Position numbers and translations under genes: made by a program. Positions 10,290 through 36,681 of a stretch of 64,000 nucleotides of DNA are shown in pieces (within the stretch, counting starts at the first letter, position 1; the number at the start of each line of letters is the position of its first letter). The notes under the pieces were generated by a model. The model did no database searches and had not been told where the DNA came from. It was given only the letters and a program-made list of their open reading frames with translations. The stretch covers positions 601,848-665,847 of the forward strand of contig NZ_LT635451.1 of NCBI RefSeq assembly GCF_900120005.1. Reading direction: 5' to 3'. Origin of the DNA: Holdemania sp. Marseille-P2844 (GTDB taxonomy: Bacteria > Bacillota_I > Bacilli_A > Erysipelotrichales > Erysipelotrichaceae).

Positions 10290-10364
10290 TGGGATGTAGC
10301 CAAGCGGTAAGGCTGTGGACTCTGAATCCACCATGCAAAGGTTCGAATCCTTTCATCCCAGCCA
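10290..10364 (+). tRNA. tRNA-Gln, anticodon CUG, CCA encoded
   Basis: A full cloverleaf is readable: seven-pair acceptor stem TGGGATG/CATCCCA, D arm with CCAAGCGGTAAGG, anticodon stem GTGGA/TCCAC enclosing loop CTCTGAA (anticodon CTG), and T arm with GGTTCGAATCC. Discriminator G is followed by genomic CCA. The sequence is identical to the minus-strand copy at 11080-11154. No other tRNA is adjacent. Confidence 0.96.
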
Positions 10365-11079: not shown

Positions 11080-11154
11080 TGGCTGGGATGAAAGGATTCG
11101 AACCTTTGCATGGTGGATTCAGAGTCCACAGCCTTACCGCTTGGCTACATCCCA
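11080..11154 (-). tRNA. tRNA-Gln, anticodon CUG, second copy in inverted orientation
   Basis: Reverse-complement reading gives the same 75 bases as the plus-strand tRNA, including anticodon CTG and encoded CCA. It has its own promoter and terminator. The two copies face each other as a 75-bp perfect inverted repeat separated by about 715 bp that contains only the DUF1232 gene. Confidence 0.96.
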
Positions 11155-32928: not shown

Positions 32929-34224
32929 TTAAAGCAGACCGACACGTTTGAAAATATCATCGACATGTTTCAGATGATAGGCCGGATTGAAGCAGTCGTC
33001 AATTTCAGCCTTGCTTAACAACGCCGTTACCCGCGGTTCCGCTTCCATTAACGAACGAAAATCAATTTTCTCATTCCAGGATTTATTCGCGTTCGGCTGG
33101 ACCAGGTCATAAGCCTCCTCCCGCGACATTCCCTTTTCAATCAACGTCAGCATAAACCGCTGTGAGAAGATCACGCCGTAGGTCTTATAAATGTTCTCGC
33201 GCATGTTGTCTTCAAACACCGTCAGCGTGTCAATGATCCGCGTAAACCGGTTGAGCATGTAGTCGAGCAGTTCCGTTGCATCCGGCGCGATGATCCGCTC
33301 GGCGCTGGAATGCGAGATATCCCGCTCATGCCACAATGCGACATCCTCGTAGCTGCTGATCATGTAACCGCGTAAAATCCGGGCACAGCCGCACATGTTT
33401 TCCGAACCGATCGGATTGTGCTTATGCGGCATCGCACTGGAGCCCTTCTGTCCCTTGTTGAAGTATTCCTCCACTTCACGGACTTCCGTGCGCTGCAAAT
33501 GCCGGATCTCCGTCGCCATTTTCTCGATCGAGGTTGCGATCAGAGCCAGCGTCGCAAAATACTGCGCATGCCGATCGCGCTGCAGCACCTGTGTCGAAAT
33601 TTTCGCCGAATGAATCCCCAGCTTTTCACAGACATAATCCTGAACAAACGGCGGGGTGTTGGCAAACGTACCGACGGCGCCGGAAATCTTCCCGGTTTCC
33701 ACCATTGCCGCCGCTTCCTCAAACCGCTGCAGGTTGCGGTTCATTTCTTCAAACCAGAGCGCGAATTTCAAGCCGAAAGTCGTAATTTCCGCATGGACGC
33801 CATGGGTTCGGCCCATCATGATCGTATCCTTATATCGCAGCGCTTTTTCCTTCAGAACATCCTGAAACCGATGCAGATCTTTCCGCAGAATTTCATTGGC
33901 CTGTTTATACAGATAGCCATAAGCGGTGTCGACGACGTCGGTGGAGGTCAGCCCGTAATGTACCCACTTCCGTTCCTCACCCAGCGATTCGGAAACCGCC
34001 CGAGTAAACGCCACGACGTCATGTTTGGTTTCACTTTCAATTTCATAGATCCGGTCGATGTCAAACGAGGCGTTCTGCCACAGCTTCGCCACGTCCTCCG
34101 CCGGGATTTCACCCAGCTGACTCCAGGCCTCGCATGCCAGCAGCTCGACTTTCAGCCACGCGCCGAACTTGCTCTCCTCATTCCAGATCGCCCGCATTTC
34201 AGGACGGGAATAACGGTCTAACAT
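32929..34224 (-). CDS. purB: Adenylosuccinate lyase
   Basis: 431 residues, usual length. It cleaves SAICAR to AICAR and adenylosuccinate to AMP, releasing fumarate. Motifs of the fumarase/aspartase superfamily are present: [16 protein letters not shown] (catalytic His region), TSTDVVDTA, and the flexible signature loop [23 protein letters not shown] containing the catalytic Ser. AGGAGG precedes the ATG. It follows purF by 13 bp as the last gene of the riboswitch-controlled operon. Confidence 0.97.
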
Positions 34225-34237
34225 AACACTCCTCCTT

Positions 34238-35641
34238 TTATTTCTGCTTAATCACTTTTTGGAAACTGAACAGCGCGGTCGGATACTGGCCGCTGAAGCA
34301 TGAGACGCACAGATCCCGCGTCGGGATGGCCTCGCGCATCTGTTCAATCGTCATGAATTTCAGCGAATCGGCATTGATGTAAGTACACAGCTCGTCCACA
34401 TTCATCCGCGCGCTGATCAATTCTTCATACGTCGAAGTGTCGACGCCGTAGAAGCATGGACTGCTGAAAGGCGCGGAGGCGATCCGCACATGCACTTCCG
34501 TTGCCCCGGCATCCTTTAACAGCTGGACAATCCGGCGGGATGTCGTACCGCGCACGATCGAATCGTCGACCATGACGACACGCTTGCCGCTGACGATGCT
34601 GCTGATCGCACTCAGCTTCATGCGCACGCCGCGTTCACGCTGTTTCTGGGTCGGCTGAATGAAGGTCCGGCCAACATACCGGTTTTTGATCAAACCGATT
34701 TCATACGGCAGACCGCTGGCTTCGCTGTAGCCGATCGCGGCCGAGAGGCTGGAATCCGGCACACCGATGACGATATCCGCTTCGACGTCATCGCTCTTGG
34801 CCAGAAGCATCCCCGCGTGACGGCGGCTGGTATGGACGTTGATGCCCTCGATGCTGCTGTCCGGACGGGCGAAATAAATGTATTCCATCGCGCACATTTT
34901 GTGCTGAACTTGATCTGTATAATGAAAGCTCTTAACGCCGTCGCTGGCGATTCTTACGACTTCGCCCGGTTCGATATCGCGGATGAATTTCGCGCCGACG
35001 ATATCAAATGCGCAGGTTTCCGAGCTGATGCAGTAGCCATCCTCAAGGAATGCCAGCGACAGCGGCCGCAGACCGTTCTTGTCGCGGACCGCATACATGC
35101 AGTCCTTGGTCATGATGATGAACGCGAACGCCCCTTCCATCTTGCGGCAGGCGCCCATGATCTTCTCAACGAACGTTCCCGCTTCCCGCTGGATCAGATG
35201 CAGCATGATCTCGCTGTCGCTGCTGCCCTGGAAGATGCTGCCCAGATTTTCCAGTTCTTCTTTCAATTCGCTGGCGTTGACAATCTGCCCGTTATGCACG
35301 GCCCCGAAATGCCCGGTATGTGCGCGGACCATGATCGGCTGCACGTTTTCGATCTCATTGCCGCCGTCGGTCGAATACCGGACATGGCCGATCGCATGGA
35401 TGCCGTCCATCTTGTTGATCGTTTCAGTGTTGAACACTTCCGTGATCAGGCCCTTGCCCTTGATGCACTTGATGTTCTGTCCGTCGCTGGTCGCAATCCC
35501 GGCCGCTTCCTGACCGCGATGCTGCAGCGCGTGCAGGCCAAAGTAGGACAGCGAGGCGGCCGAGCTGACATGATATACGCCGAACACGCCGCATTCCTCA
35601 TGGATCTTACCGTTTAAAAAATATTCGTTTTCCATTTTCAT
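34238..35641 (-). CDS. purF: Amidophosphoribosyltransferase
   Basis: About 467 residues. It converts PRPP and glutamine to phosphoribosylamine, the first committed step of purine synthesis. A short propeptide precedes the nucleophile Cys in [11 protein letters not shown], as in Bacillus-type enzymes with self-cleavage. The glutaminase part shows [16 protein letters not shown] and [10 protein letters not shown]; the phosphoribosyltransferase part has [19 protein letters not shown]-terminal [10 protein letters not shown] is consistent with a structural iron-sulfur ligand. ATG at 35641 overlaps the purC stop as ATGA; an earlier GTG at 35656 lacks a ribosome site. Confidence 0.97.
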
Positions 35642-36360
35642 TTTGTCTTCACCCACTGGCTCAAACGGCCGTATATCTCCTCATAAGCGCCGATGACGTC
35701 GCCCATATCTCTTCTGAAACGATCCTTATCCAGTTTTCTGTCCGTGCCTTTTTCCCAGAACCGGCAGGTATCCGGCGAAATTTCATCCGCCAGCAATATC
35801 CGTCCTTCGCTGTCCTTGCCGAATTCCAGTTTGAAGTCGATCAAGCGGACGTTGATCTGATCGAAAATTTCTTTCAGAACTTCGTTGACCTGCGCGGTGA
35901 TCGCATAGATCTGGTCCAGCTCCCCGCGCGTCGCAAAACCCAGACCGACGGCATGGGTATCGTTGATCATCGGATCACCCAGCTCGTCGTTTTTATAACA
36001 GATTTCATAGACCGGCGTTTTCAGCACAGTCCCCTCTTCAATTCCAAATTTCTTTGCCATACTTCCGGCAACGACGTTGCGGACGATGACTTCCAGCGGA
36101 ACGATACTGACTTTCTTACACAGCTGATCCCGATCGTTCAGCGTTTCTACCCAATGCGTCGCAATTCCACGGTGATTCAGTTCGCGAAACAAGATCGTCG
36201 TGATTTTGTTGTTGAGCACGCCTTTGTTGCTGATGCTGTCCTTCTTCAATCCGTTAAACGCTGTCGCGTCATCCTTGTAATGGATGATCACCCGCTCTGG
36301 ATCATCGGTAGCATAGACCTGCTTGGCCTTGCCTTCGTACATCATTTCCTGCTTTTCCAT
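35638..36360 (-). CDS. purC: SAICAR synthetase
   Basis: About 240 residues. It ligates aspartate to CAIR with ATP. Conserved segments are [31 protein letters not shown] at the N-terminus, [50 protein letters not shown] in the catalytic core. GGAAGG lies seven bases before the ATG at 36360. It is the first structural gene after a leader with a purine riboswitch, leader peptide and terminator, and it overlaps purF. Confidence 0.97.
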
Positions 36361-36400
36361 GCAATATCCTTCCTTTTCTCTCAATTACCCTCGCCAAAAT

Positions 36401-36426
36401 AAAAAACATATTGTATCCACAATATG
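36401..36426 (-). terminator. Leader terminator upstream of purC
   Basis: A perfect eight-base-pair stem CATATTGT/ACAATATG with a GGAT loop is followed by six T residues on the minus strand. It lies 41 bases before the purC start and 13 bases after the stop of a leader peptide, so it is likely an attenuator. Confidence 0.9.
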
Positions 36427-36439
36427 CACTGAAAAACTC

Positions 36440-36511
36440 CTAAAATGAAGTCTGCGCCTGATTCGGTCCTTTCTTCATAAAGAGTTCCTCCTTTAGGGTC
36501 AACCTCGGCAT
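36440..36511 (-). CDS. Leader peptide of the pur operon (12 or 23 residues)
   Basis: A small frame reads MKKGPNQAQTSF then TAG, from ATG at 36476-36478. AAAGGAGG lies eight bases upstream, one of the best ribosome sites in the window. The same frame extends upstream to another ATG at 36511 (MPRLTLKEELF before the second Met), but that start has a badly spaced site. The stop is 13 bases before the attenuator stem. The peptide contains two Gln and one Asn. A ribosome paused here would lie against the terminator. Confidence 0.6.
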   Translation of the reverse strand: MPRLTLKEELFMKKGPNQAQTSF

Positions 36512-36549
36512 TCACCTTGACTGCTCATTTATAAAAATGGGGGAAAAGG

Positions 36550-36619
36550 TTACTTGTAGTCCACACATAGGCCAGTGGGTAGATACGTGTCAGCCGAAAT
36601 TTGACACCTATACAAGTAA
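36550..36619 (-). promoter_or_regulatory. Purine (guanine-type) riboswitch aptamer
   Basis: Seventy bases on the minus strand fold like the purine aptamer. P1 is a perfect nine-pair stem TTACTTGTA/TACAAGTAA. P2 is GTGTCA/TGACAC. J2/3 contains TATCTACC, matching the conserved UNUCUACC. J3/1 is ACTA, with C at the ligand-pairing position as in guanine binders. The P2 loop ends in GG and the P3 loop has CCTAT, allowing the loop-loop contact. P3 is short with mismatches, so a 2'-deoxyguanosine-type variant is not excluded. Confidence 0.75.
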
Positions 36620-36652
36620 TGCAAACCTGACTGCTATCAGATTTACAGGTAT

Positions 36653-36681
36653 ATAATACACTTCTTCCCCTTGCTTGACAA
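36653..36681 (-). promoter_or_regulatory. SigA promoter of purC-purF-purB
   Basis: TTGTCA, a 17-base spacer and TATTAT on the minus strand, about 34 bases upstream of the riboswitch P1. Confidence 0.8.

Follow-up and report, generated by a model that had tools for sequence, protein, structure and literature searches.

The purC-purF-purB operon of Holdemania sp. Marseille-P2844 is probably controlled by a guanine riboswitch that acts through the ribosome: guanine would stop translation of a short upstream open reading frame (uORF), and the untranslated terminator behind it would then end transcription. We hold this reading, which combines comparison of leaders with modelled RNA folding, with moderate confidence. 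The leader lies in a window of 64,000 nucleotides, the whole stretch of DNA analysed here, within contig 14 of a 3.68-Mb genome; among named organisms, Holdemania filiformis and H. massiliensis stand closest, and loci L006 and L007 match at 96–97%. The analysis was computational throughout, and the thermodynamic folding leaves out cotranscriptional kinetics. The elements of the leader and operon, in window coordinates, are as follows.

36653–36681, minus strand: candidate promoter TTGTCA-17-TATTAT (from sequence), with the -10 element just 5' of the 5' hairpin
36620–36647, minus strand: 5'-terminal hairpin of 12 bp that abuts P1 (z = -5.9)
36550–36619, minus strand: guanine-type purine aptamer P1-P2-P3, a variant with a 4-bp P3 (RF00167, 42.1 bits)
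36539–36549, minus strand: C/U-rich strand CCTTTTCCCCC directly 3' of P1, kept in most relatives with the same aptamer variant
36496–36509, minus strand: anti-aptamer strand GCCGAGGTTGACCC, pairing with aptamer letters 36593–36608
36487–36494, minus strand: Shine-Dalgarno (SD) sequence AAAGGAGG of the uORF (from sequence)
36440–36478, minus strand: uORF of 12 codons, MKKGPNQAQTSF and stop; relatives keep its frame and position but not the peptide
36432–36488, minus strand: hairpin across the uORF (start region with uORF 3' end, then U5; p = 0.025)
36396–36426, minus strand: intrinsic terminator CATATTGT-GGAT-ACAATATG followed by TTTTTTATTTT (from sequence); stem 36426–36407, U-tract 36406–36396
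35638–36360, minus strand: purC, the first structural gene (TIGR00081, 257 bits)
34238–35641, minus strand: purF (TIGR01134, 516 bits)
32929–34224, minus strand: purB (TIGR00928, 553 bits)

The identities of the three genes come from NCBIfam equivalog matches, each above its own cut-off. Between the uORF stop and the terminator lie 13 nt, and between the terminator and purC 36 nt, while P1 and the terminator are about 123 nt apart. The first-pass annotation had described this layout (promoter match, aptamer, uORF with a strong SD, terminator 13 nt past the stop) and the long distance from P1 accurately, although the promoter-type match, with 0.7 expected by chance, is not above chance alone. 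It was without three features, namely the 12-bp 5' hairpin, the anti-aptamer strand and the family-wide distribution of the arrangement. Hairpins also occur 5' of P1 in L008, L009, L012, L014, L015 and L016, with different letters. The terminator stem is perfect yet AU-rich and weak (-5.5 kcal/mol). Elsewhere in the window, an identical tRNA gene pair is found in opposite orientation at 10290–10361 (plus strand) and 11083–11154 (minus strand), about 720 bases apart.

Guanine is the expected ligand of the aptamer, because the guanine-I pocket and the loop contact are kept and relatives stand before purC or purF. RF00167, with a gathering score of 37, is the sole Rfam family matched (minus strand), and the pocket letters of the guanine-I class are present, with J2/3 GUAUCUAC (UNUCUAC) and J3/1 ACU carrying the specificity C (C74; GACUAC in the alignment). 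The likeness to RF00167 extends over the three-stem junction, the J2/3 and J3/1 binding letters, the L2-L3 GG/CC contact and a pur gene 3' of the aptamer, whereas the short P3, the altered loops and the 5' hairpin against P1 set the window aptamer apart from guanine-I representatives. The same variant stands 5' of purC or purF, with a uORF, in six genera. Among the other purine riboswitches, three loci of one genus (L013, L015 and L016, near 1500–1600) are orphans with a terminator nearby and no purine gene 3'; their pocket reads CUAGCC instead of CUACCC, L015 and L016 also have GCUAC instead of ACUAC, and all three keep the CCTTTTCCCC strand. They are possibly riboswitch-controlled small RNAs or variants in specificity. 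Tandem purine aptamers precede a permease-like gene at L117, L121 and L124, with a terminator-like element after each aptamer.

The arrangement of uORF and terminator is widespread. About 120 further purine-riboswitch loci were retrieved from Erysipelotrichaceae and their order, and every leader with 130 nt or more between the aptamer and the start of purC, purF or purE was counted as long (n = 23; 17 genera, the leaders of one genus not being independent). All 23 contain a short ORF with a strong SD, and in 22 its stop is found at -20 nt (inside) to +14 nt (before) relative to the stem of an intrinsic terminator just 5' of the gene; in L068, read by eye, the frame passes right through the terminator. 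A script found the layout in 17 of the 23, where dinucleotide shuffles predict 0.39; five further cases emerged once every terminator was taken into account; the shuffle probability per leader, where computed, was 0.00–0.06. A short ORF with a ribosome site and a stop at an intrinsic terminator is the make-up of a pyrBI-like attenuator. The arrangement was absent from 19 NCS2-type purine transporter leaders of the same family, and pattern scans of named genomes and of viral contigs yielded, respectively, no lineage beyond those already found and no match. Short or medium uORFs that end in or near a terminator before pur or other genes were also seen in purine-riboswitch leaders of other families of Bacilli (L216, L218 and L227 by script; L214, L235 and L248 by eye). 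The terminators before purC, purF and purE share, across genera and genes, an AU-rich core starting with CATAT, mostly CATATT...AATATG (L003, L008, L009, L012, L018, L023, L047, L067, L071, L072, L147 and L185), and in the window this core occurs in the stem of one terminator-like hairpin only, the one before purC.

In Escherichia coli, a ribosome terminating at a stop codon almost completely represses an intrinsic terminator that lies only a few bases away, and efficiency recovers once the distance exceeds about 27–30 nt (PMC4824070). The stop-to-stem distances measured here all fall in that repressive range, so that a translated uORF should give read-through (gene on) and an untranslated uORF termination (gene off).

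A link between the aptamer and the start of the uORF is suggested by the linker. The duplex between linker and aptamer beats shuffles in the window (p 0.013–0.026), as does the corresponding complementarity in L008, L009/L010 and L017; L014 is borderline and test-dependent (p 0.037, then 0.23), and L011 and L012 fail against shuffles. The letters that pair vary by lineage: in the window they are the P2 5' strand and L2 (36608–36593), in L009 the match is a perfect 10 bp (UAGGUGUCAA/UUGACACCUA), and L012 and L014 have a nine-base match to the P1 3' strand (AAGUAAACC with GGUUUACUU or GGUUUAUUU). The contact initially proposed, between the CCTTTT after P1 and the AAAGG of the ribosome site, is not supported in the window leader, where it is no better than with shuffled ribosome sites (p = 0.77), and the modelled pairing of 36509–36496 with the aptamer is a better candidate for the switch. 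Pairing of the C/U strand with the uORF ribosome site is strong in L012 (0 of 300 shuffles as good) and significant in L017, and the strand is also kept in L013, L015 and L016, loci without a uORF.

Folding models are consistent with guanine gating of uORF initiation, which we regard as the more likely reading. In the window, the alternative, anti-aptamer fold is 2.6 kcal/mol better than the ligand-free P1 fold, and the start codon has a modelled accessibility of 0.15 when P1 forms and 0.98 when it does not (RNA to AUG+14; P1 disfavoured by soft penalties). The change in ribosome-site accessibility exceeds that of 97% of linker shuffles (p 0.03), and the alternative fold is also unusually stable relative to the P1 fold (p 0.05); L014 behaves similarly (p 0.03 and 0.06), the bound state is unusually closed in L017 and weakly so in L009, and nothing beyond shuffles was found in L008, L011 and L012. 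The suggestion that the ligand sets leader-ORF translation is plausible on this modelling, in which the last three lineages are uninformative. When the RNA is extended to AUG+42, the uORF-spanning hairpin buries the start codon in both states, which would confine gating to a short early time window. This hairpin (36488–36432) is genus-specific and kept in L006–L008 with one U-A to U-G change, and may be a pause site or a late hairpin occluding the ribosome-binding site. A forced anti-aptamer duplex exposes the ribosome site in 10 of 10 leaders, but any forced linker duplex would tend to do likewise; the accessibility argument is based on the shuffle-controlled folding, which is weaker than the forced-duplex result.

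Taken as a mechanism, the model would run as follows. Without guanine, the strand at 36509–36496, just 5' of the SD, would invade the P2 5' strand of the aptamer (36608–36593) and leave the uORF start region open, so that a ribosome could translate the 12 codons; terminating at the uORF stop, it would cover the base of the terminator, and RNA polymerase would continue into purC-purF-purB. When guanine is bound, P1 and P2 would stay in place, and the freed linker would fold over the uORF start region and prevent ribosome loading; the weak terminator behind the untranslated uORF would then fold and stop transcription. Guanine would accordingly act as an OFF signal, a polarity that we infer together with the ligand, the translation of the uORF and the accessibility switch, and the uORF peptide itself would have no role.

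The strongest competing explanation, which we nevertheless consider rather unlikely, is that two independent controls are stacked in one leader: the uORF and terminator would form a translation- or NTP-sensitive attenuator like that of E. coli pyrBI, and the aptamer would be a separate guanine input or serve mainly in leader folding. In the pyrBI manner, the ribosome stays close behind a slowed polymerase and prevents termination. The purE leaders speak for such independence. Six genera have, without any aptamer or any Rfam family match, a promoter, SD, uORF and terminator at or overlapping the stop, followed by purE, and in other genera the module stands behind a complete riboswitch and hairpin. 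The purE leaders that have a canonical guanine aptamer possess their own first hairpin with a U-rich tail, and in six such leaders the uORF begins with MVL[RST]R. The motif GGAGGTCTTACTTATGGTCTTAAGAAGAT, which comprises the SD and the start of the purE leader peptide (MVLRR...), is almost unchanged in its letters across 12 genera, whether or not a guanine riboswitch precedes it (locus middle of L279–L288, L294 and L295; also L045, L047, L067, L071, L072 and L147). Allowing up to three mismatches, it was found in 19 of 140 genomes, which belong to 12 genera; the reversed control pattern had no match in the genomes listed, and viral contigs had none in an exact-match search. The purE uORF start codon sits inside a small hairpin with a near-constant loop (UGGUCU, once UGAUCU), and in three of its five pairs both partners differ between lineages; the covariation score is 0.505, compared with 0.124 for shuffles, and none of 500 shuffles scored as high (7 distinct sequences). 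What is conserved is an initiation region with a covarying start-codon hairpin, not a peptide.

By its distribution, the uORF attenuator is a module of its own, with or without a riboswitch; since riboswitch-free versions exist, the module does not need the aptamer, and the rival notion that it senses something itself, be it pyrBI-like coupling or the supply for initiation, stays alive. Against stacked controls in the purC/purF class stands the finding that nothing terminator-like lies between aptamer and uORF, which leaves the aptamer nothing else to act on; in addition, the anti-aptamer strand lies immediately 5' of the SD, and a riboswitch-free purC uORF was not seen in 30 purC upstream regions. 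We tentatively advance a broader view as possible: in Erysipelotrichaceae, and probably in other Bacilli too, operons for purine biosynthesis may carry a uORF attenuator as a module that responds to ribosome loading itself, with a guanine riboswitch set before it in many lineages and gating the uORF in the purC/purF class, while the module's own signal would be set at initiation (conserved SD and start-codon hairpin). Candidate initiation signals might be formyl-Met-tRNA or one-carbon supply, nucleotide levels or an RNA-binding factor.

Guanine riboswitches are the textbook case of RNA-only control, and an ordinary transcriptional switch, in which RNA pairing is all that connects aptamer and terminator and the uORF is a bystander, would be the commonest mechanism for the family. 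In its favour, L018 (purC) and the short-leader relatives have a terminator right after P1 and no uORF. For the window leader this explanation is nonetheless unlikely. Complementarity of either terminator arm to aptamer or linker was not above shuffles in seven lineages, for which reason no RNA-only antiterminator is visible; a strand able to pair with P1 as well as with the terminator was not found, and unlike guanine-I riboswitches of RF00167, the window leader has no terminator or antiterminator competing with P1. An incidental uORF is also hard to reconcile with its retention in 23 of 23 long leaders. The first-pass proposal that a ribosome on the leader ORF links aptamer and terminator gains from these unpaired arms and from the conserved stop-at-terminator layout, and this ribosome is, on the evidence of the comparisons, the only visible link between the two.

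A further rival joins a purine sensor to a classical amino-acid attenuator, whose termination depends on where the ribosome stalls on specific codons; the first-pass annotation had named glutamine as the possible signal, the window peptide has two Gln codons, and glutamine is used by PurF. We consider this rival very improbable. The frame and ribosome site are conserved in position in related pur leaders, so that the refuting condition set in the first-pass annotation (neither of them conserved) does not apply, but the peptides of different genera show no relationship: MKKGPNQAQTSF and MKKGTVQRLIFE in Holdemania, MEKEMNQ and MGKEMNR, MLHNLKQNTSKL in Anaerorhabdus furcosa, MSIFNLKVKSLILKFI, MNDNTISLKLESFGRFF and others. 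The sole Gln of MEKEMNQ is Arg in the sister MGKEMNR, several peptides have no Gln, its position is not fixed, codon runs are absent, and it is stop codons rather than internal codons that sit at the terminator. Because neither peptide sequence nor glutamine codons are kept, the conserved feature is, as far as sequence comparison indicates, ribosome occupancy rather than an amino-acid signal. Least probable of all is an overlooked second aptamer in a tandem guanine-PRPP riboswitch, an architecture known before Firmicutes pur genes (PMC5912903) that might account for the odd P1-terminator distance: it was rejected, as no ykkC-type or other Rfam family matched the window leader even at E <= 10, and in known tandems the P1 stems are 5–7 nt apart and the core letters of the PRPP aptamer are highly conserved, whereas the window-type linker varies freely.

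Several known systems share parts of this design. E. coli pyrBI has a short translated ORF reaching an intrinsic terminator before a nucleotide biosynthesis gene, with occupancy allowing read-through, but it has no riboswitch and its signal is UTP-dependent pausing (comparison in part after PMC4824070). The Mycobacterium tuberculosis B12 riboswitches of metE and ppe2 likewise have a translated uORF in the riboswitch leader, which is required for ppe2 expression and suppresses metE expression; the coupling proposed for ppe2 is termination-reinitiation or Rho, with overlapping stop and start codons, whereas in the window an intrinsic terminator lies between uORF and gene, and the authors state that the effect of riboswitch-associated uORFs on expression had not been addressed (PMC11260477). 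The Streptococcus fthC uORF motif resembles the window leader in its SD, uORF, stop in a hairpin and intrinsic terminator before a one-carbon/purine-linked gene, but is a candidate only, from another lineage and with no known riboswitch (PMC11109978). The tandem guanine-PRPP riboswitch also places a guanine aptamer and a second layer before pur genes with a single terminator, the second layer being a PRPP aptamer and not a translated ORF (PMC5912903). Searches of the open-access literature turned up neither a uORF described for a purine-riboswitch leader nor a relay in which such a ligand-gated frame acts on an intrinsic terminator. The parts are of known kinds; what is new is their proposed combination, a uORF gated by a ligand that in turn controls an intrinsic terminator.

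The leaders with an aptamer, without one, and with an aptamer plus first hairpin form a natural variant set for testing. If the model is true, metabolite, translation of a throw-away ORF and transcription termination would form a two-step relay, and a large set of guanine riboswitches would deliver their output through a translating ribosome. This would also explain the long, odd pur leaders of these bacteria that are otherwise annotated just as purine riboswitches.
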